Virus record (IMG/VR): IMGVR_UViG_3300032011_000089
Location: 1 to 28,069 of that record
DNA from: a virus
Strand: one strand, 5' to 3'
DNA: 28,069 bases
The notes beneath the pieces are model-generated. The model made no database searches and had not been told where the DNA came from. It was given only the letters and a program-made list of their open reading frames with translations. A program made the translations under genes and the position numbers. Numbering within the stretch: the stretch's first letter is position 1; each line of letters begins with the position of its first letter. Positions 9,453 to 28,069 of this stretch are shown here, piece after piece.

Positions 9453-12326
9453 TTAATCATCGAAGGAAGCGCCACTTCTTTGAATAACAAAGTCAATAGC
9501 AATGAACTCGACGGCTCTAGTAGGCTTCAACATAACCTTTGCATAAAGGATGTTTCTGTCTACCAAGTCTGGAGTTGTTGTTGTTTCATCCAAGACGACT
9601 CGGAAGTCTTCTAGGCCAAAACGCTGTTTGATATCGTCCAAGAAAGGTACTGCTTGGTTCGTAAAACGTTCCCAAGTAACTTTCGTGTTTGGATCAAACA
9701 GAAGTCTCGCTGCAATGTTGGAGATGCCCTTCTTAACGTGAATCATCAACCTACGAACATTAATTCTGTCGAGAGCGGATGGGGTCACTTGTAAGGTCTT
9801 CTGACCAAACATGACAATCCCTTCTGCTGGAAACTTTGCAATGGGGTTAACATTTCTTTCGTACAACTTATCTCTGTTGCGCTTTGTCAATGTTTCCCTA
9901 ACGCCAGTAATGCTAATGCCTGCAGCGCCTTGATCTAAGCCACCTCTGGTAAAACCAGCAGGAGCAAACCAAGGAGCGTCGTTAGCGTCAACCGAGGAGA
10001 AGGTTCCAATAGCTGCGACTGATGGGGGTACCCAAATGCCGCCGCCTTCGTTTGTTTGAACCCAAGGATAGAAAGTACAAGCATAGCTTGAGTTAATTCC
10101 TCGTGTCTTCAAGGCGCTCAAAGTAGTTGAAACACTTCCTAAGCGGTTTGCTTCTGTTGCGGAGCTTTCGTGTGCGGCGATATAACCGTTTTCTAAGTCA
10201 ACAACAGCTAGAGCATCAGCTCTCTCTTCGCAGACCTGAATGATTCTATCGGTAACAGTAGTATTTGTGATACCAGGAGCTGAAAGAGCATTCATCTCAA
10301 CAACTTCTGGATCTTGCACTGTGTCGATAGCGCGGGTCATCGTGTGTTTTGCATAATTTGTTTTTTCTGTTCCCGAACCCAACGTGGTGTTGGAGAATGG
10401 GTCTTTTTTCTTAACGTTGACGCCATCAAAGCCACCTGCCAATGGCAAGGTGAATGAGTCAAAGCCTGCATCAAGAACGTGGTTATAAGCTGCAGAGCCA
10501 GTCACGCCAGGGCCTGCCGCCGTAAGGGACGATCCCGCTTTACGGCTACCTGCTTGATAGAGAGCGTCTGCTTCTACACCCGAAGAACTAGATACATACT
10601 TTACATCATCCAAGGAAAACTTAACAGAGTATTGAGTCTTGTTGGCCACTGGGTTGTGCGTATCATAAGAGGTTGGCAACATCTTCAAGATGTCAAGGTT
10701 ACTCTTGTCAAAATCATTAGTGCTCTTCATCGTAGAGTCAAAGCCAAAATATGCTGCCTTTGCATTTCCCGCTGAAAGTCCGTCCGAGGAGCTAACTCTG
10801 AGTGCCATAGAAGGAGCAGCAAGTTGAAGGGATGCCCAGGATACTTTCGCGCCTGCGTTTGTAGCATAGTTGGTTGACAACGTAATGTTAACGCCTGCGG
10901 AACCTGTGTTTCCTGTACCAAAGTGAGAGCCTGTTATGTAGTCTGTTGGCACAACGCCATCAAAAAGTGAGCCTGTGATGCCCAAGTTTGTGATGCGAGA
11001 GCCAGATATGTGGGAGTGTCCCAAAAAGCCGAAAGGAAGAAGCTTCTCATCAGCCGCCGCTTTTTCGACTGCATCTGAAACTTTAACGCGAATATATTGT
11101 GAAACGTTTGTGTGATTGCCGTATTCCTTGAAGCGGCGTTCGGTAGCATCCCACTCCTTGTATACGTCTCCGATCTTCCTGGAGATAAAATTGTCAGAAT
11201 TGGGGTCCAAGTTACAGTTAGTGTAACTTTCTAAGATTGTTGGGTTGCCGTCGTAGTCTTCCATGCTTCTAACCAAGACGCTAAAAGTGCCGTACTTGTT
11301 GAACCTGTTCGTTGAAGGTTTAATATCCGAAATAGAAATTTTAACTTTTCTTTGGATCTCTTCACCGCCATCTAGGGCATGAAATTTAAATAAGGTGTTC
11401 ATATTAGCAGGATCGAAGCTGCCAGTGCTTACTGACATATCCTGTGAGATGATCCATCCTGTCTGAGCAGTTTTATATCCTGTTCTGTGCCCATGCCCAT
11501 TTTCAATCGTCGTGATGAAGGCATAAGAAGACGCAGGGTTTCCGGCTGCTGCGAATGCATCCTCTACTGCTCTATCGAATGTTTGTCCCAACCAATATTT
11601 CTTTCTGTCGGCAACTGCAAGAGCGTCCGAGTCAAGAGAAGTTGGGTTTGTGTTGAAGACGTTTCTAATATATTTTTCGTCTCCAGCTCCCTGAAAATTG
11701 AATGAGGCAGTGATAACGCTGTTGGTGCCGTCTTCGACAACAACCTTGAATTCGTCTCTGTTGGTTGACTTCGCCAAGTGAAGAATGCCTTTGTCTGCTG
11801 GGATGGCTGTCCCCAAGGCGTCAGTGCCTTGAAGTCGAACACTACCTTGGTTGGTATACCAAACTGCAGCCAAAGTTCCCGTCATGTTAAGCGAAGCACT
11901 AGGGATAATAAAAAGTCCCATTGCGCCACCGTGATTAGCCTTAGTAGCGTTTGGTGTGTTGGTGGTATCCCAACCTGCGGCACCCGCTGTGGTTGCCTGT
12001 GGGTGCTGAACACCCAAAAGTCTTACGATGCTCAAGCCAGCAGAGTTTGCCAACCAAGCCTTCGCAGCTAAAGTACTATACATTGGAGAGGTCTTGTTGC
12101 CGTTTCTCCATACATCGTCACTGTTACCGCCAGTGATAACGTCACCGAATAACATTGAATATTCTAATTGAGAGTTGACCTTTACTGGTCGCATGCCAGG
12201 GCCTCGGTCTGTTCTTCCGATAAGAACAGGGCCAACTGGGGCTGCCTCTCTAGGGAGACGAGAGTTATCTATCTCATCTAAAAATACGCCTGGTGATACA
12301 AATCTAAACTTTCGAACGTTTGCCAT
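9453..12326 (-). CDS. 18: Contractile tail sheath protein (gp18-like)
   Basis: This 957-residue protein forms the contractile outer tail. The N-terminus has FRFVSPGVFLDEIDNSRLP, then GPVLIGRTDRGPGMRPVKVN, the hallmark of T4-type sheaths. The C-terminal ~170 residues hold EGIVMFGQKTLQVTPSALDR, VRRLMIHVKKGISNIAARLL and AKVMLKPTRAVEFIAIDFVI, the conserved domain that interlocks sheath subunits. It is about 300 residues longer than T4 gp18 (659). The excess is in the variable middle (about residues 150-640), rich in T, S, G and N, likely extra domains exposed on the outside. Strong ribosome sites (AAGGAG and GAGGAG) precede the ATG. The tube gene follows after 52 bases. Confidence 0.93.
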   Translation of the reverse strand: MANVRKFRFVSPGVFLDEIDNSRLPREAAPVGPVLIGRTDRGPGMRPVKVNSQLEYSMLFGDVITGGNSDDVWRNGNKTSPMYSTLAAKAWLANSAGLSIVRLLGVQHPQATTAGAAGWDTTNTPNATKANHGGAMGLFIIPSASLNMTGTLAAVWYTNQGSVRLQGTDALGTAIPADKGILHLAKSTNRDEFKVVVEDGTNSVITASFNFQGAGDEKYIRNVFNTNPTSLDSDALAVADRKKYWLGQTFDRAVEDAFAAAGNPASSYAFITTIENGHGHRTGYKTAQTGWIISQDMSVSTGSFDPANMNTLFKFHALDGGEEIQRKVKISISDIKPSTNRFNKYGTFSVLVRSMEDYDGNPTILESYTNCNLDPNSDNFISRKIGDVYKEWDATERRFKEYGNHTNVSQYIRVKVSDAVEKAAADEKLLPFGFLGHSHISGSRITNLGITGSLFDGVVPTDYITGSHFGTGNTGSAGVNITLSTNYATNAGAKVSWASLQLAAPSMALRVSSSDGLSAGNAKAAYFGFDSTMKSTNDFDKSNLDILKMLPTSYDTHNPVANKTQYSVKFSLDDVKYVSSSSGVEADALYQAGSRKAGSSLTAAGPGVTGSAAYNHVLDAGFDSFTLPLAGGFDGVNVKKKDPFSNTTLGSGTEKTNYAKHTMTRAIDTVQDPEVVEMNALSAPGITNTTVTDRIIQVCEERADALAVVDLENGYIAAHESSATEANRLGSVSTTLSALKTRGINSSYACTFYPWVQTNEGGGIWVPPSVAAIGTFSSVDANDAPWFAPAGFTRGGLDQGAAGISITGVRETLTKRNRDKLYERNVNPIAKFPAEGIVMFGQKTLQVTPSALDRINVRRLMIHVKKGISNIAARLLFDPNTKVTWERFTNQAVPFLDDIKQRFGLEDFRVVLDETTTTPDLVDRNILYAKVMLKPTRAVEFIAIDFVIQRSGASFDD

Positions 12327-12433: not shown

Positions 12434-13255
12434 TCAAAGTTTTTTGTCAATATCTTCTTCTAAAATTGCTCTTTCTCTACCAATTTTAATTTCCACAGCG
12501 TTTTGATACTTTGCTATTTTTGGGCGATTATCAGAATCAACTTCTGTGAACGTGTAGCCAATAACTTGGAAATCTATGTTAGTGACATAGACCCTTTCGC
12601 CCTCGCCAATGTTTGAAATATTATTCTCATATGAAAAGTTCTGATCATAAAACGCTTCATATGCATGGCCGTCATGCTCAACATAAAAGCTGTTTAAATT
12701 TCCGGGTCGAACCAAGAAAGGTTGAGACATTTTATTCATGTGTTGTTGGTATTCTGTCCTAAGAGTTACCTTGTAGTTCACAAGCATATAGACGGGAGCA
12801 GGTATTGCGAGAGTCTCGTAGACAACCCTGTCATTCTTTCCCCTCATATTAACTTGGTTTGTTTTTGATAGTGCCTTAGCAGAAGCAAACTCACTCGTCT
12901 TGTCTTGTTTGATTCTTTTGTGAATATTGTACGCGCCACCCTGAACCTTGTCGTAAGGCATAATAAGAGACTGAAGTCTGCCTCTTCTTTGAAGATCTTT
13001 TTGGATAGATGTCCTCTCAACTGTTATGAGTGGATAAATGAGTGCTCCCTCGCTATCTCTCAGATCTTTATTGTTCTTTACTTGATATGCCCTCTCTGCA
13101 GTTACCCACAGAACTGGAACTTTCTTAAAGCCCTTGTTTGTGTCTACATGTATATCCATAGATTTATCAACCCACTGATAGAAGGCATAGTCTATTGTTT
13201 CTAGAGTCGATGGCTCTATTAATGGAATATCTTCAATGTCTTTTTCTTTTGCCAT
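12434..13255 (-). CDS. Tail completion/sheath stabiliser protein (gp15-like)
   Basis: This 273-residue protein sits immediately upstream of the sheath. T4 gp15 forms the ring that caps the finished tube and sheath and joins the tail to the neck. Visible similarities are KVPVLWVTAERAYQVKNN near the N-terminus (gp15 has a comparable 'V-P-I-x-Y-A-S-K-E'), then PAPVYMLVNYKVTLRTEYQQ with MSQPFL, and VYVTNIDFQVIGYTFTEVD near the C-terminus. These are the strand-helix-strand elements of the tail-terminator fold. It is close to T4 gp15 in size (272 residues). It starts 3 bases after the stop of the fibre-like gene, with only GGCGGG as a possible ribosome site, so coupling to the upstream gene is likely. 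Confidence 0.68.
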   Translation of the reverse strand: MAKEKDIEDIPLIEPSTLETIDYAFYQWVDKSMDIHVDTNKGFKKVPVLWVTAERAYQVKNNKDLRDSEGALIYPLITVERTSIQKDLQRRGRLQSLIMPYDKVQGGAYNIHKRIKQDKTSEFASAKALSKTNQVNMRGKNDRVVYETLAIPAPVYMLVNYKVTLRTEYQQHMNKMSQPFLVRPGNLNSFYVEHDGHAYEAFYDQNFSYENNISNIGEGERVYVTNIDFQVIGYTFTEVDSDNRPKIAKYQNAVEIKIGRERAILEEDIDKKL

Positions 13256-13258
13256 ATT

Positions 13259-14692
13259 TTATAACCCGCCAAATACCGATGGGAACCAAACCCCGTTTTC
13301 GTTGAAGTAGTGTTTGTTTGCTCTAACAAACGGGCCAATACTTCCTGAACTGCCCGTATTACTAATATAAATAGCTCTGCCAGAGTAAGAAGCCGAGTTT
13401 GCGTTGAAGTTAGTCAATATAGCGCGGTCTTCTTGGTTGTTTCCGTTTAGGTGCAGAATGTCATGAAGATCCGGCTTGGATACACTGGCAGTATTCGCAA
13501 CCGATGTATTAAGGCTGCTAAAGGAGGAAGGAAACCAGACTCCATTTTCGTTGAAATAAAATTTTCTCGGTATCGTAAACGGACCCACTGGACTCGATGC
13601 TGTATTAGCAAGGTAAATTATCTTACTAGAATAAGAGCTCGCGCTGACATTATAAAGAGTCAACAATGCGCGGTGGTTGCCGCCTGCTCCGTCGTCACTA
13701 AGAACAAGAATGCCGTTCCCCGTAGTGATAACTGTACTTGTTCCTCCGCCAGAACCCAGTGCTGACCAAGAGCCGTTCTGATAAAACTGAAAAACATTAT
13801 CTGTAGTGTTGTATATCATTGTCCCGTTAGCGTTACTGATACTGTTTCGCTGCGTTGTTGTCATTCTGGGAATAACAACTCCTCCGGTTGTTGAGCTGAT
13901 ATTAAGCGTACTTCCGTCAAAAGTTAAATTGGCCTCGCCCTGCAGCGTCGATGAATTAACTCCTGTGAGAATTCTATTATCAGCACCATTGTTGAAAGTC
14001 AGGCTGCCGCCGCCTGAGCCTGTTGTTTCCGCCACCATCTTGCCGACATATAGGAAGCCCCTAGCGTGTGTTGGTATACGACTTGCTTGATAGTCCTGAA
14101 GGAATACGATACCACTGTAATAATCTATTTGCCAGTCTGTTTCATCAAGAGAAGTAATTTCATTCGTGGCGTCAGTTGGATCTCCCTTGTACAGTTTAAG
14201 ATAATAAGGGTTTGCACCTTCGTTTGAAAAGCTGGGTGGTATTAGTTGCACCTTTCCCAAAGTCTCATAAACTGTTTTATCATCATCGAAATATCCGTTT
14301 CCGGCCTTGGAGTTGCTCGAAAGAGATTCATAGTTCCCGGTCATCACAAGTTTGTATCCATGTGTACCTGCAGAAGTTGCCTCGTCGCCACCACCGAAGC
14401 CGACATTACCAAACGAGCCTGTGTTCGCATCGTATGATGTTCCGGAAATTGCCTCCACTTTGAAGTTGACATATTCAACAGTTGCGCTTGCCCCTGCTGA
14501 TGCACTTTGCAAGGCATATAAGGTGAGAGAAGGGTTCTCCGGTATAGTTTCGCCAAAGATAGTTTGAGAAGAAACTTGAATATTGCTAGGTATAGATTCT
14601 TGTGCGTCTGACTTTAGGTTTGAGGTGTGAGCTCTTCCTAGTAATTTCTTTTGTGAGAACAGAGTTGCAGTTAAATTAGTTTTTCCGGCCAT
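13259..14692 (-). CDS. Fibre-like neck/collar-region protein with duplicated ENGxWFPS C-terminal domain
   Basis: This 477-residue protein has an N-terminal domain of ~220 residues beginning MAGKTNLTATLFSQKKLLGR that I do not recognise; it may be an attachment domain. After a GSGGG linker, a fibre-type segment holds VVIPRMTTTQRNSISNANGT and then IYNTTDNVFQFYQNGSW, a common tail-fibre motif. The C-terminal ~150 residues are two copies of a ~70-residue domain ending in YFNENGVWFPSSFSSL and YFNENGVWFPSVFGGL. A third copy ends the protein at 25832. In T4 the whisker gene wac neighbours 13, 14 and 15, so a gene between 14-like and 15-like may encode a collar appendage. This is inference; a tail or head fibre is equally possible. 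The start has no clear ribosome site and lies 7 bases after the giant gene's stop. Confidence 0.65.
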   Translation of the reverse strand: MAGKTNLTATLFSQKKLLGRAHTSNLKSDAQESIPSNIQVSSQTIFGETIPENPSLTLYALQSASAGASATVEYVNFKVEAISGTSYDANTGSFGNVGFGGGDEATSAGTHGYKLVMTGNYESLSSNSKAGNGYFDDDKTVYETLGKVQLIPPSFSNEGANPYYLKLYKGDPTDATNEITSLDETDWQIDYYSGIVFLQDYQASRIPTHARGFLYVGKMVAETTGSGGGSLTFNNGADNRILTGVNSSTLQGEANLTFDGSTLNISSTTGGVVIPRMTTTQRNSISNANGTMIYNTTDNVFQFYQNGSWSALGSGGGTSTVITTGNGILVLSDDGAGGNHRALLTLYNVSASSYSSKIIYLANTASSPVGPFTIPRKFYFNENGVWFPSSFSSLNTSVANTASVSKPDLHDILHLNGNNQEDRAILTNFNANSASYSGRAIYISNTGSSGSIGPFVRANKHYFNENGVWFPSVFGGL

Positions 14693-14699
14693 GTCTTAA

Positions 14700-17600
14700 T
14701 TATGATCCATATGTAAAAGATATTCTAGATAAATAGCCTGTCCAGTCTTTGTGGGCAGTTATTCTTACTAATAAATAGTCTGCATTTCCTCCTGAAGTGC
14801 CTTCTAGAGTTGCTGTACGAAAGTTTATTCCGTATGAAGTGCCGCTACCGTCCACTGTCTGGTCCACATCGGCACCGCCGCCATTGTACCCACCGGAGCC
14901 ATCTGTGGCAATATTTTCCGACAAAGATGCTGGCCTTGCCATGTCTAGCCAGCCTGAATCTCCTGGTATTTTCACTTCCAGGTGAAAGTTCTTGCTTGCA
15001 CCAAGAGAGCCTGTGTTGAATGCCCCACCTTTCGATATGAGGTTTGCATCTCCGCGCAAGGTTACAGTTGCCAAAGATACGTCGCCAACCTGGTTTGATC
15101 GAAAGTATCTGTAATATTCTCTTGTTGCAGCTGTTAGTGTTGAATAGTTCGGGTTTCCTGTGGGTGCCTGCAATGCTCCGCCATCATTAGCGCAGCGGAA
15201 GTCTCCAGACAAGCCACCAGTGAGAGGGGACATCAGTTTATCATTATATATTAACATCCCATTTGAATAAGTCGCATTGCCTCCGGCGTCATTAATGCTG
15301 ACCGTTGAGCTCCATGCGTTACCCGCATTAGTCACACTGTTTTGTGTCGCGTAACTACCAGACTGTAGCCTGTAGACCTCGCCATCAAAATGTTCAGTGG
15401 AGTTCAAGTCTGAACTTTGGCTTCCACTGAAAACTAAAAAGCTGTGCTTGCTTAATGTTGAAGTAGTGAGGTTTGACTTTAGGGGGTGCTTAACTCTGGA
15501 CGAGACAGATGCAGTATGAGCTGTTGTTGCATGTGCACCGACCAATGAAGCCGACGGGTCGAACGTTATTGTTCCGGTGATCTGAAGTACTTGGTCTTGT
15601 GAGTTCGCAGTTGTTGCTAAAGCTGGCAAGGCTTTTGTTGCACCAGAGGTTGTGCCTGTGGAAGCAAGCCCTGAGCCGAAAGTTCCGATATGTGAAACAG
15701 TTGTGTTTGTTGTGGTGGGAAACGAAATACCATCAGAAGATCTGTAATATACATTCTTATATACGTTCGAAGCTGCATAGGTAAACGAAGCAGAACAATC
15801 AACAAAGTACCTCACTCCAGACAAGGAATAGAATACGCTACCCGAAAAGTTTGTTAAATTTGTAGCAGCAGCAGATAAGGCGTTGCTATCAGGGTCATTA
15901 ACCCACTCTACATAATTTGTAATAGTCTGACTAATACCAGATCCAGTATGAACAACCCTTGCATAATTCCAGCCATTTCTCTGGTCTGCTGCTCCAACTT
16001 GATATTTTCCTGTTCTGTAGATTTTTGTATAATCTGGCAAACTATTGCCCGAATACAACCCTGGCTTATAAATACTCAGACTAACAAAACCTGAGCTGTT
16101 TGCATTTAATTCGCTGTCTGTTCCTGAGCCTGGGTTTCCTGACCCGACACTGGCACTGGCTAGGTCTATCGTATGAACAACCGCACCGTTCACTTCCAGT
16201 TTCAAACTTCCGGTTGCAGCATTCTTAAAAGAGTTCGCAACATAACTTGTTCCATTTGCAGATATATCTTCATTGAGTTCGCCGTCTATAACTGTGGTGC
16301 CATCAAAGACACCAGCAATGTCGCCACTATCAAGAAAGTTACCGTTAAGATCAACAGCAGAGTTTCCAGTGTTTGTTGATACATTTGTGTATCCAGTGAC
16401 GCCCTTTGAAGACCCAAAAGAAAGCTTAACGTCTGTGCCCGAATCATTGATGTCAATGTCGTCAAGGGCAGGGGCCTCAGTAGGGGCTGTTCCCGTACCT
16501 GCGCCGAAGGCTACAACAATGTCATCGACATAGCCGGTCCAAGATGTGTCTGCCTCTATTTTTAAAACAACATCGTCGCCATTCCCAACACCCTTTGTTC
16601 CGAAAGTTACATAGTTGGTAGCATCAACTGAGTTGTCAAAAGCAAGAACATATGCTCCCGAACCTGCCGAAGTCTGATCATAAGTAAAAGCGGCAGCAAC
16701 GTCCATGAAGCCAGTTGATCCTGGAATCTTAATGAATGCCCTAATTCTACCTGAGTTAAGTGCTGTTCCTGCTGGGACTATGGTCGTTCCACTGCCCTCG
16801 ATTGTCAAGGTGATGTCTCTCTTGGTTGCTCCAGTAGAGTTACGGAAGTACCTAAAGAATGTTCTAGTTCCTGACTCTCCGGAATAGTTTGGGTTTCCAG
16901 CTGGTGCCAGTCCGAATGGACCTCCTTCAGAGTTGTCTCGGAAATCCCCACTCTGAATTGTGTTCAGTGGAGAATATAGCCTTGCACTGTATAGTTGCAG
17001 GCCGTCGGAATGTGTACCTGATGCGGTCATGTGAGTTTGCGAGTTCCATGTGCCACTATCTACATCGGATTGAGAATCATAAGAACCAGAGAACAAGCGA
17101 TAAGTTTCTTCTTTAAACCGCTCTCTTAGTGCTGTTGAGTTTCCAGACGGGTTATAAATTAAGATACCAGTAGAGCTTGCAGAACCACCGTTGGACAAGT
17201 CCGATTTCAATGGGTGTGCAACATTCACAGAAGATTGAATGGAGCCACTCAATGATTGTGTGCTAGTTGTTGCACTTCCTGTTATCTTCAGTACCTTTGT
17301 CTCGTCTTCTCCCGCGCCAAAGTTTAGCTCAGGAAAAGCTTGTGCGGATATAGAACAGTTGGTGGTAGTAAAAGATATATTCTGTGATGTGTATACATTC
17401 CTATATGCATTGCTAACCTCGACAATATAGTTCGCTGATGCGCTTTTAAAATACTGTACCCCTGAGAGATATTTGCCGCCAAGTCCTGTCTCGTTTGCAA
17501 AACGAGCGTTGCTAGCTGCCAAAGCATTTGAGTTGTTGTCGTTAACCCACTGCACAAAGTTTGTTGTTTTGCTGCCCCATGAACCTGAGTGTTTTACCTG

Positions 17601-20600
17601 TGCATAGTTTAGGCCATTCCTTTGGTCTGCTGTGTGCACTCGATATTTTGCAGTCCTGTGTTGGAAAATACTAAAGGCATTCTGACTTCTGTCTTCTGCT
17701 GATGCAGTTACTGATACGTTTATAAACCCTGAACCGTCTCCATTGACGTGAGTTCCTGCTCCAGAGCCTGGATTTCCGGAACCAATTGCTGAGGACGTTA
17801 AGTTGATGCTATGCTCAAGAGTTCCGTTAACATAAAGCTCTAGAATTCCTACCTCTGCGTTCCCGAAAGAATCTACTGGGTAATTGTTTACAGCGTTGTC
17901 GTAGGTGTCTGCAGTGACGTGAAAGTTGACAATGCCCTCTATATTGGAAGCTCCGTTGTAAGTTCCTCGGCGGAAGTCATCTCCAGATGTTGCAGATTCA
18001 TATGTGCCGGTGACATTTAATGCAGAAAATGAACCTATAGAGGATACGTTCGTATATCCCGAAATTGCATTAGAGGAGCCAAAAGATAATTTTGAGGAAA
18101 CGCCTGCCCCAGTTGAAGCATTTATTCTACTGACATCAGGTGCTGGGGATGGTGCTAAGATTTTTAATATCTCGTTAAACCTATCGACTGCAGTGCCGAC
18201 TGGGGTTGTGGATATAAAGTCCGTAAAAAGGCCGTCGGTGTATGTGCCGTCTTCAGCTGTACCAATGTTTCCGGAACCACTAGCTGCACTACCAGAAGCT
18301 GCAGAGATCGTTACCTGTCCGGATGATCCAGTAACCAAAGATATGTTAGACCCTGCTCTAAGATAAGCAGTGCCATCTCTAAGTTTTGTCAAAGAGCCTG
18401 TTATCGAAGTGGAAATCATGTTTCCAATTGTTATATTGTTTGTAGTTACACTTCCATTGTCTGTAACTTGATCAAGAGTGGATGCGGTGGATATGCCTGT
18501 TAGATTTGAGCCGTCGCCATAAAAAGCAGAGGCAGAAATGTTTACGGATGCCGATAAGTTTCCTGTGATTGTGGCATTACCAGTATGACTCCCGTCCCAT
18601 TCTGCAGTGACGCCTGTTAGATTTGATCCGTCGCCATAAAAGGCGGATGCTGATATATTTGCCGAGGCAGAAATTCCTGCAACAGATAATGTCCCTGTTG
18701 TAGTGGCTCCTCTGGCTACCACAGTAGAGAGAGTGTCTGTTTCGGCGTAATAACTGGCAGTAGAAGCAAGAGCAACTGCGCCTGCAACATTGCTTCCAGT
18801 GATATAAGATGCAGTAAATGCACTTGCAACCGTTCCAACAACATTGGAAGCACTTATCGAATTGGCGAGGCCTGCAGTCGTTGCAAAAGAGGCGGTGATA
18901 CCTGTCAAGTTTGAGCCGTCTCCGTAAAAAGCGGAACCAGATACATTCCCTGTGATTGTGGCATTGCCAGTGTGGGTACCATCCCACTCTGCAGTGACGC
19001 CTGTTAGATTTGATCCGTCGCCATAAAAGGCGGATGCTGATATATTCACAGATGCTGAAATGCCTCCTACAGACAAGGTTCCTGTTGTCTGGGGGTTTCT
19101 TGAGACTACAGTATGGAGAGTGTCTGTTTCGACATAATAACTAGCAGTAGAGGCAAGGGCCACTGGGCCAACAACGTTGCTGCCAGTAACAAAAGAAGCA
19201 GTAAACGCACTTGCCACTGTTCCATCAATATTGGAAGCACTCACTGAGTTGGCTAGCCCTGCCATCTTTGCATAAGAGGCAGTGAGTATAAAAGATGCTG
19301 TTTGTGCATTTGTTGCATTTGCTGCACTTGCAACTGTGCCAGAGATGTTTGAAGCAAGAACATAGCTCGCAGTTAACGCAGTCACAACATAAGATGCAGT
19401 TTGTGCATTAATAGCGTTTGTGGCGTTTGCCACTGTTCCGAAGACTTTGCTCCCAGTAATAAAGGAGGCGGTAAATGCATTCGCGACTGTACCGACAACG
19501 TTGCTGCCTGTAATAAACGAAGCAGTAAACGCACTTGCCACTGTTCCGACGACGTTCGAGGCGCTTACTGAATTAGCGAGCTGTGCGGTCGTTGCAAAAG
19601 AGGCAGTCTGTGCGTTAACTGCGTTTGTCGCATTTGCAACTGTTCCGACAATGTTACCTGCTGTTATGTTTGTTAAGTTCGCGCCTGATCCATAAAATGC
19701 GGAAGCAGATATGTTTAACGATGCTGACAGAGAGCCTTGTATAGTCGCGTTGCCAACATGACTTCCATCCCACTCTGCAGTGACTCCAGTAATGCCAGAA
19801 CCATCGCCGACAAAAGCAGATGCTGAGATATGGCCAGAAGCGGATAAGTTTGCTGTTACAGCTAGACTACCAGTGATGGAGGCACTCCCGACGTGGCTAC
19901 CATCCCACTCTGCGGTGACTCCAGTGATATTTGCACCATCGCCGTAAAATGCTGATGCTGAGATATTTGCTGATGCTGAGATGCCTCCCACCGACAAAGT
20001 TGCCGTTGTGGTTGCCCCTCTTGCAGCCACAGTGGAGAGAGTGTCTGTTTCGGCGTAATAACTGGCAGTGGATGCCAGTGCAACTGCTCCGGTGACATTG
20101 CTTCCCAGAATATAAGAAGCAGTATGGGCCAAAGAAGCAGTATGAGCCAAAGAAGCAGTATGAGCCAAAGAAGCAGTGTGTGCGTTGTCTATTGTGCCAG
20201 TGAGTGTCGTAGTGGATGCAATTGTTATCTCATTTGCATTGGAAGTTATGGTTACGTTGTTCCCTTCCTTAAAAGACTTAAATTGTAGCTCTGATCCCAC
20301 TTTTTTGGCAAATGCGCCTTCTCCAGAGCCCAAATTCTTTACTGTGTTCTTTTCGCCCTCTACTTTTTGGATAAAAGACGCATTTTCGCATGCAGTAAGT
20401 GAATTTTCGTCTATTTCGTCGCCTGCAGGGACTTTCTTCTTACTTAAAGTGAAAACTCCCTGTCTAGCCCTGATACACTCTGCTATAATTTCGTATTTGT
20501 TGTTTACTTGTCCAAATAATAGCCTTGGGCTCTTCAAAATGGTGATTTCGTACAGAATATTGCCATATAAAAGGTAATCGCCCTCTCTTACAAACAAATT

Positions 20601-21542
20601 CTGGTCTTCAGTGAGTCTTTTCTTGTGAAACTTGACACTTATCTTAGATGTTTTGTCTAAGCCGAGGTAAGTTGTCTCTGTATCTGAACCTAACCACTCT
20701 ACAGCGGCAAAAATCCTCATAGGAGGAAGAAAAGTCTTATCAATGCTCTCGCCGTATAGGTTATGGTAGTTGCTGTGCTTGATGCTGACAGGAAAATATA
20801 CAACCTGCTGGCCAATGACCCTTTCTAGGACTTCATCACCAACTTGCTTTGTTAAATCTCTCTCTTTTTTACCAGTGAACAGTGGTGGTGGAGGACTATC
20901 CTGAGTTGTATACTCGTTATGCTTCACCTGATCATCTTTGCAGATAGCTCCGTTAACATCTCCTGAGCTTTCAACTATATTTATCTCGTTAACCGGGTCG
21001 TATGCATCAGCAATCAGCCTCGGGTCTTCCTCTTCTGATGCCACATAGTCCTGCTTTGGAAATGTGCCGTCCCTAGCTCTTACGCATTTCGCAGCTATTT
21101 CAATTTTTTCGTCTACTTGCCCGAACAATAGCCTTGGCTGTTGAAGTGTGACTACTTCGTAGTATTGATCTCCATAATAGACATAATCCCCTTCGCGCAC
21201 AAACAGGTTCTTGTCTTCGGTCAACCTTCTTTTTTGAAAATGTACTGTAATAGACGACTTTTTCTCTATTCCAAAAGAGTCTGTCGTTGTTTCTTCGCCG
21301 TTCCACTCTACATAAGCATCTATTTTAACGGGCGGCAGAAAGTTTTTATCTATGGCTTCCCCATAGAGATCATGAAAGTTAGTGTGCTTAACACTGATGG
21401 GATAATATACTAAAGCGGATTTAACAACTCTTTCAGAAATTTCATCTGAAACTTGTTTTGCTAAGTCTTTTTCTTTCTTTCCCGTAAAAAGCGGAGGGGG
21501 CGGAGCTTTCGGACGGTTCCAGACATTATCGTTATCTGACAT
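14700..21542 (-). CDS. Giant neck-adaptor/fibre fusion protein (two gp14-like domains plus repetitive fibre)
   Basis: This 2,280-residue protein has four regions. Residues 14-161 and 217-364 are two copies of one domain (period 203), each starting PPPPLFTGKK and containing the block LTED(K/Q)NLFVREGDY; residues 57-70 and 260-273 share NLYGE-type and FLPP motifs. The layout resembles T4 neck protein gp14 (LYGE near the front, 'EGD-x-x-Y', then F-x-x-G-Q). Residues ~446-1075 are low-complexity beta repeats with seven SASAFYGDGSNLTG-like motifs and many NVVGTVASAFTAS-type units. Residues ~1152-1680 and ~1707-2280 are a second tandem duplication (period 555) of a module from LSFGSS to W-T-G-Y. 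No peptidase S74 or other C-terminal chaperone was seen. TAGGAG at the upstream gene's stop serves as the ribosome site. It probably forms a trimeric or multimeric appendage at the neck. Confidence 0.75.
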   Translation of the reverse strand: MSDNDNVWNRPKAPPPPLFTGKKEKDLAKQVSDEISERVVKSALVYYPISVKHTNFHDLYGEAIDKNFLPPVKIDAYVEWNGEETTTDSFGIEKKSSITVHFQKRRLTEDKNLFVREGDYVYYGDQYYEVVTLQQPRLLFGQVDEKIEIAAKCVRARDGTFPKQDYVASEEEDPRLIADAYDPVNEINIVESSGDVNGAICKDDQVKHNEYTTQDSPPPPLFTGKKERDLTKQVGDEVLERVIGQQVVYFPVSIKHSNYHNLYGESIDKTFLPPMRIFAAVEWLGSDTETTYLGLDKTSKISVKFHKKRLTEDQNLFVREGDYLLYGNILYEITILKSPRLLFGQVNNKYEIIAECIRARQGVFTLSKKKVPAGDEIDENSLTACENASFIQKVEGEKNTVKNLGSGEGAFAKKVGSELQFKSFKEGNNVTITSNANEITIASTTTLTGTIDNAHTASLAHTASLAHTASLAHTASYILGSNVTGAVALASTASYYAETDTLSTVAARGATTTATLSVGGISASANISASAFYGDGANITGVTAEWDGSHVGSASITGSLAVTANLSASGHISASAFVGDGSGITGVTAEWDGSHVGNATIQGSLSASLNISASAFYGSGANLTNITAGNIVGTVANATNAVNAQTASFATTAQLANSVSASNVVGTVASAFTASFITGSNVVGTVANAFTASFITGSKVFGTVANATNAINAQTASYVVTALTASYVLASNISGTVASAANATNAQTASFILTASYAKMAGLANSVSASNIDGTVASAFTASFVTGSNVVGPVALASTASYYVETDTLHTVVSRNPQTTGTLSVGGISASVNISASAFYGDGSNLTGVTAEWDGTHTGNATITGNVSGSAFYGDGSNLTGITASFATTAGLANSISASNVVGTVASAFTASYITGSNVAGAVALASTASYYAETDTLSTVVARGATTTGTLSVAGISASANISASAFYGDGSNLTGVTAEWDGSHTGNATITGNLSASVNISASAFYGDGSNLTGISTASTLDQVTDNGSVTTNNITIGNMISTSITGSLTKLRDGTAYLRAGSNISLVTGSSGQVTISAASGSAASGSGNIGTAEDGTYTDGLFTDFISTTPVGTAVDRFNEILKILAPSPAPDVSRINASTGAGVSSKLSFGSSNAISGYTNVSSIGSFSALNVTGTYESATSGDDFRRGTYNGASNIEGIVNFHVTADTYDNAVNNYPVDSFGNAEVGILELYVNGTLEHSINLTSSAIGSGNPGSGAGTHVNGDGSGFINVSVTASAEDRSQNAFSIFQHRTAKYRVHTADQRNGLNYAQVKHSGSWGSKTTNFVQWVNDNNSNALAASNARFANETGLGGKYLSGVQYFKSASANYIVEVSNAYRNVYTSQNISFTTTNCSISAQAFPELNFGAGEDETKVLKITGSATTSTQSLSGSIQSSVNVAHPLKSDLSNGGSASSTGILIYNPSGNSTALRERFKEETYRLFSGSYDSQSDVDSGTWNSQTHMTASGTHSDGLQLYSARLYSPLNTIQSGDFRDNSEGGPFGLAPAGNPNYSGESGTRTFFRYFRNSTGATKRDITLTIEGSGTTIVPAGTALNSGRIRAFIKIPGSTGFMDVAAAFTYDQTSAGSGAYVLAFDNSVDATNYVTFGTKGVGNGDDVVLKIEADTSWTGYVDDIVVAFGAGTGTAPTEAPALDDIDINDSGTDVKLSFGSSKGVTGYTNVSTNTGNSAVDLNGNFLDSGDIAGVFDGTTVIDGELNEDISANGTSYVANSFKNAATGSLKLEVNGAVVHTIDLASASVGSGNPGSGTDSELNANSSGFVSLSIYKPGLYSGNSLPDYTKIYRTGKYQVGAADQRNGWNYARVVHTGSGISQTITNYVEWVNDPDSNALSAAATNLTNFSGSVFYSLSGVRYFVDCSASFTYAASNVYKNVYYRSSDGISFPTTTNTTVSHIGTFGSGLASTGTTSGATKALPALATTANSQDQVLQITGTITFDPSASLVGAHATTAHTASVSSRVKHPLKSNLTTSTLSKHSFLVFSGSQSSDLNSTEHFDGEVYRLQSGSYATQNSVTNAGNAWSSTVSINDAGGNATYSNGMLIYNDKLMSPLTGGLSGDFRCANDGGALQAPTGNPNYSTLTAATREYYRYFRSNQVGDVSLATVTLRGDANLISKGGAFNTGSLGASKNFHLEVKIPGDSGWLDMARPASLSENIATDGSGGYNGGGADVDQTVDGSGTSYGINFRTATLEGTSGGNADYLLVRITAHKDWTGYLSRISFTYGS
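14703..16424 (-). repeat. C-terminal module copy 2 of the giant fibre protein
   Basis: Approximate limits. The copy starts at LSFGSSKGVTGYTNV and ends near W-T-G-Y-L at the protein's C-terminus. Shared landmarks with copy 1, in the same order, are GSGNPGSG, KYxVxxADQRNGxNYA, WVND, LSGVxYF, HPLKS, YRLxSGSY, GDFR, GNPNYS, YRYFR and DxSWTGY-type ends. Confidence 0.7.
16503..18089 (-). repeat. C-terminal module copy 1 of the giant fibre protein
   Basis: Approximate limits. The copy starts at LSFGSSNAISGYTNV (residue ~1152) and ends at W-T-G-Y-V. It is about 555 residues ahead of copy 2. The landmarks are conserved in order but the copies have diverged strongly, so this is an old duplication. Confidence 0.7.
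18601..18659 (-). repeat. 59-bp perfect direct repeat, copy A
   Basis: Identical over 59 bases to 18988-19046. It encodes the end of the SASAFYGDGSNLTGVTAEW unit of the giant fibre. Identity at third positions points to recent duplication or gene conversion. Confidence 0.9.
18988..19046 (-). repeat. 59-bp perfect direct repeat, copy B
   Basis: Second copy of the 59-bp repeat at 18601-18659, 387 bp (129 codons) away, in the same frame of the same gene. Confidence 0.9.
20113..20184 (-). repeat. Four 18-bp tandem repeats encoding AHTASL
   Basis: Four consecutive 18-bp units (20113, 20131, 20149, 20167). The middle two are identical; the outer two differ at a few bases. On the minus strand they encode AHTASL hexapeptides at the junction between the N-terminal adaptor region and the long repeat shaft. 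Repeats in whole codons allow length change by slippage without breaking the frame. Confidence 0.9.
20451..20894 (-). repeat. gp14-like neck domain copy 2
   Basis: Codes for residues 217-364 of the giant protein. It shares with copy 1 PPPPLFTGKK, V(S/G)DE, HxNxHxLYGE, IDKxFLPP, KxRLTED, NLFVREGDY, RLLFGQV and the RAR-x-G-x-F end. Confidence 0.85.
21060..21503 (-). repeat. gp14-like neck domain copy 1
   Basis: Codes for residues 14-161 of the giant protein. Copy 2 lies 609 bp downstream in the gene. The copies are clearly related in protein but diverged in DNA. Confidence 0.85.
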
Positions 21543-21551
21543 TCATCTCTC

Positions 21552-22814
21552 CTATCCCATAAGAATAACTAATGGAACCTTCTGGTGAATTCTATTTGCA
21601 TTATCAACAAGATCTGCATCACCTTCCATCAACTTGGCGTATGTTAGTTCGTCAAGAACAGTCTTGAGTTCATCTCTCAAGGTTGTTTGTTCTTCTCTTG
21701 CCTGAGTCGCTAACTGCTCTCCATTGAGGGTTACTGAATCTCCCGGAATTGGAAGTGTTGCAAACTTGCTTCTTATGAGGCCCAAAGTCTCTTTACATAA
21801 TGATAGAGCGAACCTTCTTATCCATTGCTTGCCGATAGCGTTTATATTATCATAAGGCAAGTTGCCAAAAGGAATTGTGTTTATATTGTTAATTCCGGCG
21901 ACGCCAATAGATCTATCGGAGTCCTCTTGCCAAGAATCTGAAGGGATGGTAAACTCAAACCATATCTTATTATAGATGTTTGCTTCCGGAATAGGGAACA
22001 ATCTTATCTTGTTGTTTCTTAACTCGTAGGAGTAATGGCTGGTTCTTGTGTATAGACTGTCTTCATACGCCATTGCTTGTAGTTTATTTTGCCAAGGTGG
22101 TATAACCTCGTATGTAGAATCGTCTGCATATTGCCCATAAGTTGACATATTGCCAACCACGCCGAGGCCGCCATAGTAGCCATAAAAGCGCCACATGGTT
22201 TTTGGAGTCTTGTAAAAGACTTTCTTTACAAGTATCTTGTTCTTATTTGTTCCGGTTAAAGAGCCGCTAAAAGCTGGCATTGCGGAAACAATAGTTTGTA
22301 AATCATAGTCTTGTTTGCCTGTCTTAACATCTATTGAAGCGGAGTATGTAGTTTGGTTTCCGCCGACGCCAGCATCTTCGGAGATGCCATCTGCAACACG
22401 CCTTGCATAACTAAAATCAAAGGAAGGGTATTTTAACGAAACGTGCGAGCCGCTAAGGGACGAAGAGAGTTGACCGGACATTATATTGCCTTTGTGGTCA
22501 AAAGCTCCTGTGGTGTTCCCCAGGACGTCAGAGAGTATGTTTTTACTTTGATGTATGTTAACAAGGTAACTGTACTCTAAAACAGCCTCTTCGTAAGCCG
22601 CATATACTGTGTCTTCTTTTATTTCTAAGTCGAGGACGTCTCCCCCAAGTTTTTTATAAACATAGTTAACTTGGGCAGAAGCTCCGGATAAAAACTCAGC
22701 GTTCCCTGAATATACGCCATATGGCAAAGCAGCGTCAACGTTACCGATTGTTCCTGTGGCTGGCAGGGTTGATGCGTTAGTGGTGCTTTTTGGGTTTAAA
22801 TTTGGTAAAGACAT
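21552..22814 (-). CDS. Neck/connector protein (gp13-like)
   Basis: This 420-residue protein starts at the ATG at 22814, not at the upstream start at 22901. GGAGGA lies 8 bases before 22814, and the longer frame would read through the capsid gene's terminator. The segment VNYVYKKLGGDVLDLEIKED followed by VYAAYEEAVLEYSYLVN resembles the start of gp13-type neck proteins ('LG-x-P-V-I-x-I-E-V ... A-x-x-Y'). The middle has KILVKKVFYKTPKTMWRFYG, and the C-terminus is helical and charged around TTLRDELKTVLDELTYAKLM. The place between the capsid gene and the gp14-like domains fits T4 order 13-14. It probably binds the portal and closes the head. Its TAG stop overlaps the next gene's ribosome site. Confidence 0.62.
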   Translation of the reverse strand: MSLPNLNPKSTTNASTLPATGTIGNVDAALPYGVYSGNAEFLSGASAQVNYVYKKLGGDVLDLEIKEDTVYAAYEEAVLEYSYLVNIHQSKNILSDVLGNTTGAFDHKGNIMSGQLSSSLSGSHVSLKYPSFDFSYARRVADGISEDAGVGGNQTTYSASIDVKTGKQDYDLQTIVSAMPAFSGSLTGTNKNKILVKKVFYKTPKTMWRFYGYYGGLGVVGNMSTYGQYADDSTYEVIPPWQNKLQAMAYEDSLYTRTSHYSYELRNNKIRLFPIPEANIYNKIWFEFTIPSDSWQEDSDRSIGVAGINNINTIPFGNLPYDNINAIGKQWIRRFALSLCKETLGLIRSKFATLPIPGDSVTLNGEQLATQAREEQTTLRDELKTVLDELTYAKLMEGDADLVDNANRIHQKVPLVILMG

Positions 22815-22842
22815 ACATGTTTCCTCCGAGTGTCCAACATTA

Positions 22843-22850
22843 TAAATAGT
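22843..22850 (-). promoter_or_regulatory. Candidate late-promoter element ACTATTTA before the neck genes
   Basis: The minus strand reads CTTACTATTTATAATGTT, placed after the capsid gene's terminator and 28 bases before the ATG at 22814. It also contains TATAAT. It would restart transcription into the neck and tail block. Confidence 0.4.
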
Positions 22851-22868
22851 AAGAAAACACCGTAAATT

Positions 22869-22898
22869 GAAAAAAGAAACGCCCTCACAGGGAGGGCG
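22869..22898 (-). terminator. Terminator after the major capsid gene
   Basis: A 7-bp stem (CGCCCTC at 22880-22886 with GAGGGCG at 22892-22898) has a 5-base loop. On the minus strand it is followed by TTTCTTTTTTC. It lies about 30 bases after the capsid stop. Confidence 0.85.
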
Positions 22899-22928
22899 CA
22901 TCTATTAGTCATGTTTTAGGTTAGTATA

Positions 22929-24617
22929 TTAGCCCTGCATATCAGAGATAATAACCAAGCCGTACATGTCAGGACGTACCATTTTCTTAGCGTAACGAGT
23001 CATTACGCCTTTTCTTGGTACGAAGTCTTCAGGACCAAAAATGGTCGGTGTGACTTGCAATGGAACGTAAGGAGCATAAACATATCCACTTTCGAGGAAG
23101 CTGCTACCTTTACGGCCAACTAATACAACGTTACGTGGGAAGTATGGGTCAACATAAACTTCCAACTTACCGCTCAAACTACCGACGTTAACTGCACCAG
23201 TGGTACCTTTGTCGTCGTCATGAGTAACCTTAGCTTTGAAGCCAGCGGTGAATTCAAGCAAGTTAGCTGCTTCTGGGGATACAACGATGAAGTTGGCTCC
23301 GCCGCGCAACGTTTTGCGGTGAATCTGTGCTGAAACGTCATTGATGGTTTCGAGAAGAGTCTCGTACCATTCGCTAACAGTACCAGTGAAGTCTGCACCG
23401 AGCAAGGATTCGTTCGCGCTAGTGCTGATTTGCAAACCAGTTTCGCGGTTCAAGAACTTACCTGGGCGACGTGACCAGTAATAGGTTGATGCGGTTGCAC
23501 CGTTGATCAAGTCATTCAAGATTTCCTGATCGAGTTCAAGAGCAATGTGCTCGGAAAGAACGTTTGTTAATTCAACTTCAGCGTCTAAGTTGTGATAAGC
23601 GTTCAAGTCTTGTCCTAATTCAGGAGTCCACTTTGCTTTCAACTTCTTAGTAACTGCAGTAACAGCAATGCTATCAACGTTGATGTTGATCTCAGGGATG
23701 TTACCATCGTTCTCTAAGCCCCATTCAGCTGCACCAACAACAGAACCGATAGCACGAGGGCCAGCGTTGAAGTTGTCAACCAAAGGATAGCTCAAAGTAC
23801 CAGCAATGTTTGCTGCACCGATGTTTGCGCTCATACCAGAGAACATGATGTCAAGGTTGTTGCCACTAAGCGTAGTCAAACGACGAACTTGGTTAGCACC
23901 AGACAAATGACCTGCAGTAGTAGGCGTAAACACGATTTGAGTCAAGTTTTCTAAGTTAATTTCATCTCTAAAGGATGTGATAGCGATTCTCAACTGCTGA
24001 CACTTAGTAGTGCTAGCTGCAACCAAGTCAGGGTCATGACGAATAGCTTTCAATGAAACTTCGTTCATGCTGCCTGGAGCAACAGAAGCAGACAACTGAG
24101 TACCCGTTCTGATTGCGTTCAAAGACTGCGAACCAGTAGGTGAACTGTAAGAGTTGTTCAAGTTGTAGAAACCACCAGATGCTTCAGTAAGAGCAGCATT
24201 GGCAAGACCACCAGTAATTTGCTGGCCGAGGGTTCCGCCGCCATAAACTGATTTATCAGCAACACCACCACCACGAGTCTTGTCTAACTTGAAATCCAAG
24301 AAGAAGATAAGACCAGATGGAAGGCTCATAGGCTGAACACTTACCAGTTCATTTGCGATTAAGTTACCGAATACACGACGAACGATAGGAAATGCAACGG
24401 ATGCAAAACCTTCAACATCGGCACCAGCCATGGATGAAGCTTCACGGAGAAGTTCTTTTGCTTGGTTTTCGAGCAAGCGGCTCATATAATTTTTTGATTG
24501 TGAGGAAGTAAGACCTTCGAGAAGACCAGTATTTTCCCACTTATTCAGTAATGCAGCGCCTTCACCAGAGAGGTCACGCTCTACAATACCTTCAGTTAAT
24601 TTTTCAATAACAGACAT
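22929..24617 (-). CDS. 23: Major capsid protein (gp23-like)
   Basis: This 562-residue protein (T4 gp23 is 521) forms the head shell. Family signs are YMSRLLENQAKELLREAS near residue 45-60, then FPIVRRVFGNLIANELVSVQ with PMSLPSGLIFFLDFK. KWTPELGQDLNAYHNLDAEV and ELTNVLSEHIALELDQEI come later, and SGYVYAPYVPLQVTP is near the C-terminus. The sequence LRE|A at residues 57-60 fits the T4 prohead protease rule (L/I)-x-E before a small residue, close to gp23's cut after residue 65, so the first 59 residues may be a cleaved propeptide. AAGGAG lies 10 bases before the ATG. Codon use looks more uniform than in neighbouring genes, as expected for high expression. Its own terminator follows. Confidence 0.95.
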   Translation of the reverse strand: MSVIEKLTEGIVERDLSGEGAALLNKWENTGLLEGLTSSQSKNYMSRLLENQAKELLREASSMAGADVEGFASVAFPIVRRVFGNLIANELVSVQPMSLPSGLIFFLDFKLDKTRGGGVADKSVYGGGTLGQQITGGLANAALTEASGGFYNLNNSYSSPTGSQSLNAIRTGTQLSASVAPGSMNEVSLKAIRHDPDLVAASTTKCQQLRIAITSFRDEINLENLTQIVFTPTTAGHLSGANQVRRLTTLSGNNLDIMFSGMSANIGAANIAGTLSYPLVDNFNAGPRAIGSVVGAAEWGLENDGNIPEININVDSIAVTAVTKKLKAKWTPELGQDLNAYHNLDAEVELTNVLSEHIALELDQEILNDLINGATASTYYWSRRPGKFLNRETGLQISTSANESLLGADFTGTVSEWYETLLETINDVSAQIHRKTLRGGANFIVVSPEAANLLEFTAGFKAKVTHDDDKGTTGAVNVGSLSGKLEVYVDPYFPRNVVLVGRKGSSFLESGYVYAPYVPLQVTPTIFGPEDFVPRKGVMTRYAKKMVRPDMYGLVIISDMQG

Positions 24618-25831: not shown

Positions 25832-28069
25832 TTATAAGTCTGATGCAAATGGGGATGGATACCATTCACCATTCTCACAGAAGTACCATTTATTGACATT
25901 TCCAAATGTTTGTTGCGTAATCGCATCTGCACTTGCCCAGCTTGAGCCGGAGACAATATAGATCATCGAACCGTTGTATGCACCTGGAGCTGCTGCCATT
26001 GTGTCCAAAACATTAACATCAGAAGCGTTGTCCTGACGGAAGTGTGTAAGACTCAAAAGACCAGTAACCGTAGTAACATCAGTTCTAGCATTACCAAGAG
26101 CTGAGTCACCCTGGACAGTCAATGTGCTTATCGTTGAGCCACTTGCATAAATGTGTGATGCTGACAAAGGAGCTGAAGTAAAACTTACATTTCCTGTTGC
26201 GCCACCCAAAGATGCACTTGTTGTGAGGCCGAACTGAAAGCGGTCTGCTGACTCGTCCCAGATAAACAATGCGTCAACTGCTGTGCCTCTCTTCATGACA
26301 AGGCCAGTATCGTTGACGTTGGTCGCGCCATTGTCTGTATCACCACTACCACTGTTCAGCATAATCAAGTTATCGTAGAACGTTGTATTGGATGATGAGA
26401 CATAAGTAACAGAGCCCTGTACAGTCAAGTTTCCACCAACAGTCAAGCCAGTGTTCAAAGACAAGGAGTCATCTGAAGCATTGTGCGTGATAGTTGTTGG
26501 GGAACCAGCACCGAAGCTAAGAACTGCGCCGTCACTTAACAATTTAAGGTCGTCACCAATAACAGCGTCTAATGCAACAGACAAACCGCCGTCGGTCTGC
26601 AAAGAGCCGTCAGTTGTTGAAGTTGCGTTAGTTGTATCATCAGTCTTTAATACGCCAGAGAAAGTACCAGTAGTACCTGCAACTGTTGTAAACGTACCTG
26701 CCGCTGCAGAAGCTGCACCGATAACAGTGCCGTCAATCGCACCAGAGTCAATGTCAACGTTAGTTGAATTGTAGTTGGCATGATCAACGTTTGAGCCCAA
26801 CGTTCCAAGATTGGAAGTCGTTGCAGTCAAGGTTGTGACAGTTGCCGCTGCAGCACTTGCTGCACCGATGGTAGTACCGTCGATTGCGCCACCGTTGATG
26901 TCAACAGTAGTCAAAGTAGACGTGCCAGTTGCAGTGATCGCATCAATGTAACCGTGGTCAATATGAGCTTCGGCCCACTGCTTTGCAGATGTACCCAAGT
27001 CGCTTGTGCTATCCAAAATAGGAATCAAGTCACTATCAAACTGACCAGTTACAGTAACGCTGTCTGTGGTAGCGTTACCTAAGTCAACGTCACCAGTTGC
27101 AGACAATGTTGTTGCAGTCAAAGCTTGAACAGCAGTTGTACCAGCGGAGACACTTAGGCCACCTTTGGTCACTGCCAAAGCATTGTTTGCAGTCAACGTG
27201 CTCTCAACGTGCATCGTGCCGCCGACTGACGCATTGCCAGAACCAGAGACAGTGCCCATAACAGTTAAGTTATTACCCAGGCTTGTTGCACCAGCAATTT
27301 GCAGTGTGCTAGAACCAGAGATGGTTGTAAACTTTGCAGTTGTTGCAGAGTTTGCACCGATAGCAGTACCGTCGATAGCACCACCGTTGATGTCAACAGT
27401 AGTCAAAGTAGACGTGCCAGTTGCAGTGATCGCATCAATGTAACCGTGGTCAATATGAGCTTCGGCCCACTGCTTTGCAGTTGTACCTAAGTCTCTCGCA
27501 CTGTCAGTTGATGGAATCAAATCACTATCAAATTGTCCTGTTGCGGTGATGGTGTCCGTGGTTGCGTTACCTAAGTCAACGTCACCAGTTGCAGACAAGG
27601 TTGTTACAGTTGCTGCTGCTGCAGAGTTTGCACCAATAACAGCTCCATCAATAGCACCGGAGTCAATGTTGACGTTAGTCATTGCTTCATCAGAGAAGTT
27701 AACAGCACCAGCCTGCTCGTAAGCACCGAGCTTAGTAACAGTCAAAGTATTATTAACTTGATCAAAAGTAATACCACTATCGTAGTAAAGGTTTGCAGAT
27801 GAAGCTGCAGAGGCAGAAACCAATGCGAACGTCAATGTATCACCCGCCTCAACGCCGTCAGTTTGAGCAACACTCGCACCTACGCCTGTCAAGTTGGAGC
27901 CGTCACCATGAAAGGTTTTGGCATGCATTGCGGAAGCAGACAGTGGAGCTGAGTCAAAAGCTAAGTTTCCAGTCTGAGTTCCTAACGAGCCCGACTTTAA
28001 TGTTGCAATTTGGAAACGGTCTGCTGACTCGTCCCAGAACATTGCTGCATCAGTTGCCGCGCCGCGCTT
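25832..28069 (-). CDS. Repetitive fibre-like structural protein, 5' end beyond the right edge
   Basis: The frame is open to the last base. The nine codons beyond the ATG at 28042 (KRGAATDAA before MFWDESADRF) match an internal unit, KRGTAVDALFIWDESADRF, so that ATG is internal and the true start lies outside. At least 745 residues are present. The sequence is beta-rich, full of T, A, G, S and D, with a 164-residue tandem repeat around DSDLIPxxDSxxDLGTxAKQ and WAEAHIDHGYIDAITATG. One FHGDGSNLTG motif is shared with the giant fibre. The C-terminal ~70 residues end in NKWYFCENGEWYPSPF, the domain also found twice at 13259-13716. Repeats of this kind are frequent in marine myovirus structural proteins. 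It is probably a fibre or head decoration; a terminator isolates it from the scaffold gene. Confidence 0.7.
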   Translation of the reverse strand, partial: KRGAATDAAMFWDESADRFQIATLKSGSLGTQTGNLAFDSAPLSASAMHAKTFHGDGSNLTGVGASVAQTDGVEAGDTLTFALVSASAASSANLYYDSGITFDQVNNTLTVTKLGAYEQAGAVNFSDEAMTNVNIDSGAIDGAVIGANSAAAATVTTLSATGDVDLGNATTDTITATGQFDSDLIPSTDSARDLGTTAKQWAEAHIDHGYIDAITATGTSTLTTVDINGGAIDGTAIGANSATTAKFTTISGSSTLQIAGATSLGNNLTVMGTVSGSGNASVGGTMHVESTLTANNALAVTKGGLSVSAGTTAVQALTATTLSATGDVDLGNATTDSVTVTGQFDSDLIPILDSTSDLGTSAKQWAEAHIDHGYIDAITATGTSTLTTVDINGGAIDGTTIGAASAAAATVTTLTATTSNLGTLGSNVDHANYNSTNVDIDSGAIDGTVIGAASAAAGTFTTVAGTTGTFSGVLKTDDTTNATSTTDGSLQTDGGLSVALDAVIGDDLKLLSDGAVLSFGAGSPTTITHNASDDSLSLNTGLTVGGNLTVQGSVTYVSSSNTTFYDNLIMLNSGSGDTDNGATNVNDTGLVMKRGTAVDALFIWDESADRFQFGLTTSASLGGATGNVSFTSAPLSASHIYASGSTISTLTVQGDSALGNARTDVTTVTGLLSLTHFRQDNASDVNVLDTMAAAPGAYNGSMIYIVSGSSWASADAITQQTFGNVNKWYFCENGEWYPSPFASDL
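26889..26988 (-). repeat. 100-bp perfect direct repeat, copy A
   Basis: Identical over 100 bases to 27381-27480. It encodes AKQWAEAHIDHGYIDAITAT and the following TSTLTTVDINGG. Perfect identity over so long a stretch in a diverged repeat array indicates recent duplication or conversion. Confidence 0.95.
27381..27480 (-). repeat. 100-bp perfect direct repeat, copy B
   Basis: Second copy of the 100-bp repeat at 26889-26988. The offset is 492 bp, exactly 164 codons, so recombination between copies would delete or add one whole repeat in frame. Confidence 0.95.

Follow-up and report, generated by a model that had tools for sequence, protein, structure and literature searches.

Can the protein that plugs the neck of a tailed phage also be the root of a fibre? 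This question arises from a single open reading frame (14700..21542, minus strand) in the window, the whole 28,069-nucleotide stretch of IMG/VR record IMGVR_UViG_3300032011_000089 analyzed here, which encodes 2,280 amino acids (aa) from an ATG without an internal stop. The earlier note had proposed that the protein starts with two tandem domains resembling T4 neck protein gp14 and continues as a giant fibre, and the self-alignment agrees: residues 6-161 and 209-364 align without gaps over 156 residues at 60% identity and 78% positives (E 2e-71), with the motifs LYGE, FLPP, FVREGDY, and LFGQV present in both copies. Domain A (residues 1-163; 21054..21542, minus strand) is delimited by a hidden Markov model (HMM) of its relatives and by the clade that A domains form in trees, and domain B (residues 207-368; 20439..20924, minus strand) by the same HMM, the trees, an AlphaFold model, and structural matches. 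The linker between them (residues 164-206; 20925..21053, minus strand) is predicted by AlphaFold with low confidence and contains a DPRL/DP segment conserved among relatives. A domain search of the 28-kb window returned neither a third copy nor any other match, which agrees with the earlier reading that the window holds no separate gp14-like gene. An assembly artefact can be excluded because the same architecture occurs on 22 other contigs, including L001, whose protein is 63% identical to the 2,280-aa protein over its full length.

The gene lies among recognizable T4-type structural genes. On the minus strand, the order is the gp23 major capsid protein (22929..24617; Pfam Gp23, 3.8e-74), a gp13-like adaptor (21552..22901; PHROG head-tail adaptor Ad2, 1.5e-10), the 2,280-aa fusion, a 477-aa fibre-like open reading frame, a gp15-like tail completion protein (12434..13255), the tail sheath (9453..12326; PHROG profile match), and the tube. 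The window's gp15-like protein matches Pfam T4-gp15_tss weakly (0.0023), and its orthologue in L056 matches the same family at 5.3e-6. The fusion gene therefore does occupy the slot expected of gene 14, between 13-like and 15-like genes, but it does not directly adjoin the gp15-like gene because the 477-aa gene intervenes. In the window clade, the fusion gene lies between gp13 and gp15 on every contig that shows both neighbours. Two side observations concern the annotation of this region. The listed start of the gp13-like frame is probably too early, as relatives suggest an internal ATG near 22814 (MSLPNLNPKS), and two large frames in the structural region (587-3967, 1,126 aa; 25832-28042, 736 aa) have no convincing PHROG match.

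The likeness of the two domains to gp14 had first been seen by eye. Single-sequence HMM matches to the PHROG head closure family Hc2 were not significant (0.006-0.016), and a PDB sequence search with the domain alignment gave chance matches only (RelE, E 0.37). When a profile of 54 relatives was compared by hhalign with a profile of 12 T4-type gp14 proteins, the two aligned over 127 collinear columns with a probability of 81% (E 1.2e-5), while 50 column-shuffled controls reached 1.6% at most. The AlphaFold model of domain B (pLDDT 72) has an N-terminal loop, a helix (22-37), and a beta-barrel with a long beta2-beta3 hairpin (strands 70-86 and 89-103), the layout in which T4 gp14 has been described (PMC12270204). 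In a Foldseek search of the PDB with this model, the leading matches were phage neck stoppers, T4 gp14 ranking second (9mkb, E 6.7e-5); VIA ranked the phage 812 stopper best (Z 10.9) and gave T4 gp14 (9lu4) a Z score of 7.7; and neck, head-closure, and stopper are among the names of the predicted viral structures matched. The tandem A-B model (pLDDT 46) is too poor for placing A relative to B. Profile-profile homology, predicted fold, and gene slot thus agree with the visual impression, and they support assigning domains A and B to the head-closure/stopper type, related to T4 gp14.

What follows domain B has the makings of a fibre. A fibre start segment (residues 377-450; 20193..20414, minus strand; ENASF..NLGSGEGAF..LQFKSFKEGNNVTITS), conserved in fused relatives, leads into a shaft of SASAFYGDGSNLTG repeats (18243..20222, minus strand; Pfam Chlorovi_GP_rpt, 5.4e-9), in which the motif has seven matches between residues 531 and 1006. 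Two C-terminal fibre domain copies of ~590 residues complete the protein (residues 1093-1683, 16494..18266; residues 1684-2280, 14703..16493; both minus strand), and these are 36% identical to each other (E 1.9e-87). The repeat shaft and C-terminal domains of a fibre type common to other fibre genes identify this part as a fibre. PDB sequence searches with the shaft, the C-terminal part, and the fibre start segment gave nothing meaningful, and no fibritin family was listed when the whole protein was scanned against Pfam with E values up to 0.1.

The 477-aa gene that intervenes before gp15 (13259..14692, minus strand) appears to belong to the same fibre, as judged from how the genes are paired. 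Six fused proteins of the window clade end in the ~590-residue (TGYLS) domain, and each has a gene of 477-479 aa directly downstream, which ends in a YYFNENG-type tip, whereas none of the 13 fused proteins with a tip of their own has this gene. L210, from a second clade described below, shows the same split between fibre and partner, with its own tip. The tip is thus carried either by the fused protein or by its partner, and the simplest view is that the 477-aa protein probably forms the distal part of the fused protein's fibre.

As a separate matter, uncultured megaphages (L108, L109, and L111; LR756508, LR756502, and LR756500) too have the ~590-aa domain in their fibre gene clusters, where it is unlinked to gp14 and, in the cases read, is followed by a relative of the 477-aa gene. 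The domain and the 477-aa relative make up a mobile module for fibres that very different phages have in common.

Relatives of the domain were collected from IMG/VR scans and sorted by architecture. The earlier note had proposed a search for single-domain homologues without a fibre; these exist and are the rule, most relatives being a stand-alone domain of ~165 aa in the same slot (256 loci with one plain domain, some contigs being counted more than once). The form with two domains and a fibre was found on 23 contigs including the window; in two of these domain A is partial where the contig is cut, L064 is cut after domain A, and the complete proteins range from 615 to 2,479 aa. All A domains form one clade (support 100/95; 99/94 in a larger tree), as do all B domains (100/99; 100/97 in the larger tree), and a single duplication therefore preceded the radiation of the window group. 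Of the 61 positions with a conservation of 95% or more across 131 stand-alone relatives, each copy keeps 52, and dN/dS values of 0.015-0.051 for domains A and B point to strong purifying selection on both, so that, at the level of sequence, neither gp14 domain copy is decaying. A scan of a genome collection for hosts found no relative.

Two contigs of the fused type, 190 and 191 kb long and possibly incomplete, both carry a T4-type portal, and no other gp14 of the family was found on either. The T4-type gp14 profile had no match on large contigs, but this blank is no evidence of absence because the same profile also misses known stand-alone relatives; likewise, a PHROG 679 search had no match on the fused contigs and none in control genomes either.

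Fibre-bearing gp14 is not confined to the window group. In a second, related clade, gp14 has left its place between gp13 and gp15, which are direct neighbours there, and lies in a cluster of fibre genes upstream of gp22/gp23. Here, a single gp14 domain fused to a fibre was found at about 20 loci (361-1,243 aa where complete), and at 18 loci on about 14 contigs a plain gp14 gene accompanies the fibre-fused one. Several contigs that span the gp13-gp15 block yielded no gp14 other than the fibre-bearing one. The fibre-bearing domains of this clade cluster together in the tree, separate from the window clade, and one duplication common to both clades is rejected (AU p 2.5e-6). Judged from these trees and architectures, T4-like phages from metagenomes have evolved a fibre-bearing gp14 on at least two occasions. 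The view that duplication is obligatory for fibre fusion is rejected as well: the second clade has single-domain fusions, and duplication is therefore no precondition for a fibre-bearing gp14. Loci with the second-clade arrangement include L128, L129, L131, L134, L182-L183, and L344-L347. At L226, a plain gp14 adjoins a fibre-bearing gp14, apparently through a separate later duplication.

We consider it likely that the 2,280-aa protein is the phage's gp14 stopper, turned into the base of a neck appendage. It would dock under the gp13 adaptor and gate the DNA channel as a head closure protein or stopper; the two gp14 domains of each chain would fill the six-fold stopper ring, most likely as three chains forming a pseudo-hexamer; the C terminus of domain B would run on into the repeat fibre projecting from the neck; and the adjacent 477-aa protein would probably extend this fibre and carry its tip. 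The neck location, the occupancy of the ring, and a trimeric state of the fibre are what we infer, and there may be a role in host contact or in fibre folding. Against this reading, the large contigs may be incomplete, a very divergent stopper may have escaped the search, and ring and fibre may be separated by proteolysis.

How many chains such a ring would hold is a question of symmetry. The suggestion that a tandem pair could let six chains fill a 12-fold site does not fit the T4 neck, in which gp14 is a hexamer and it is gp13 that is the dodecamer (PMC12270204); long-tailed phage necks combine a dodecameric adaptor with a hexameric stopper (PMC12886913). A six-fold gp14 ring and two domains per chain favour three chains instead, and there is an analogy in the T5 tail tube protein pb6, a duplicated domain that forms trimers with pseudo-hexameric rings (PMC9022992). 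The analogy suggests that three chains of two domains would fill the six-fold stopper ring, a count that would also suit a trimeric fibre. The argument is weakened because the second clade bears fibre-gp14 without duplication, and if the stopper of that clade is a hexamer, its ring would hold six fibre chains. We therefore put forward only tentatively, and at rather less than even odds, the full arrangement in which three chains contribute six gp14 domains to a pseudo-hexamer that closes the DNA channel and one trimeric fibre to the neck.

It is possible, though doubtful, that six chains are present, each placing one domain in the six-fold stopper ring and the other in a second ring or elsewhere, for example at gp13, with six fibre chains or two trimeric fibres as the outcome. 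This is a variant of the stopper-and-fibre reading, and confidence in the two overlaps. The single-domain gp14-fibre proteins of the second clade, which imply six fibre chains if the ring is a hexamer, speak for it; the equal conservation of A and B, with few diagnostic differences, is as expected for equivalent positions and speaks against it, as does T5 pb6, a precedent for domain duplication cutting the number of chains by half (PMC9022992).

A reading that we regard as unlikely is that the gp14-type domains only anchor the fibre to the neck while another, undetected protein makes the stopper ring. Roles could be divided in this way on those second-clade contigs that pair a plain gp14 with a fibre-bearing one. 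Yet no other gp14 was found on the ~190-kb fused-type contigs, several second-clade contigs spanning the gp13-gp15 block showed no gp14 but the fibre-bearing one, and both window-type domains retain the conserved positions of stand-alone gp14.

Several head proteins of T4-like phages are proteolytically processed, and cleavage during maturation, for example by a prohead-type protease, would set the fibre free from the gp14 domains, to attach elsewhere. The low-confidence linkers in the AlphaFold model would be compatible with such cleavage, but the fusion has been kept across 23 contigs despite very different fibre lengths and two endings, and a gp14-fibre fusion arose a second time; we give this reading little credence. 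That the domains are a beta-barrel of the baseplate or tail tip rather than a neck protein is highly improbable: some lower-ranked structural matches are baseplate proteins, but neck stoppers top both structural rankings (Foldseek and VIA), and the profile match to T4 gp14 and the 13-x-15 slot point the same way.

Several known systems share parts of the stopper-and-fibre reading. T4 gp14 (stopper I; PDB 9LU4-9LU7 and 9MKB) has a homologous profile, the same predicted fold, and the same gene slot, but it is a single-domain protein of 256 aa that forms a hexamer and carries no fibre, and the whiskers of T4 consist of fibritin, a different protein, which is bound to gp13. In T5 pb6, too, a domain with hexamer-forming relatives is duplicated in tandem (PMC9022992), but pb6 is a tail tube protein with no fibre, and for the window protein we only infer a trimer. 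Anabaena phage A-1(L), a contractile cyanophage, also has multipart fibres rooted at the neck, but these consist of separate fibre proteins, gp82-gp81-gp80, on the gp5 pentadecamer, and its six-fold neck protein gp7 carries no fibre (PMC10966104). The best VIA match, gp97 of Staphylococcus phage 812, forms a hexameric stopper and has an additional domain on its outside; this domain, however, is a small beta-sandwich, and the putative whiskers of that phage are probably attached via separate decoration proteins (PMC12886913). The gp14 proteins of cyanophages S-H9-1, S-CAM4, and ACG-2014f also have an appended C-terminal segment, but on a single gp14 domain, with an extension that does not exceed a few hundred residues and with other repeats. 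These cyanophage gp14 loci (L099, L100, and L105/L107) encode 375-493 aa with C-terminal extensions, and those of S-H9-1 and S-CAM4 contain GGTGYTSAPTVTI-type repeats.

In the literature searched, we found no stopper described as fused to a fibre or as serving as a fibre base. Known neck fibres, such as T4 fibritin and A-1(L) gp82, are separate proteins on adaptor rings, whereas here the channel plug is apparently itself the fibre base. One protein thus appears to be both DNA plug and root of a neck fibre, in T4-like phages known only from metagenomes, and a design with two or more origins is likely to be useful. The domain duplication may be a way to fit a three-stranded fibre onto a six-fold ring. 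If the arrangement of three chains is true, the genome gate and a surface fibre would be a single covalent assembly, and contact made by the fibre could be felt directly at the DNA plug. These phages would offer a natural test case of whether contact at the fibre can be relayed to the genome gate.
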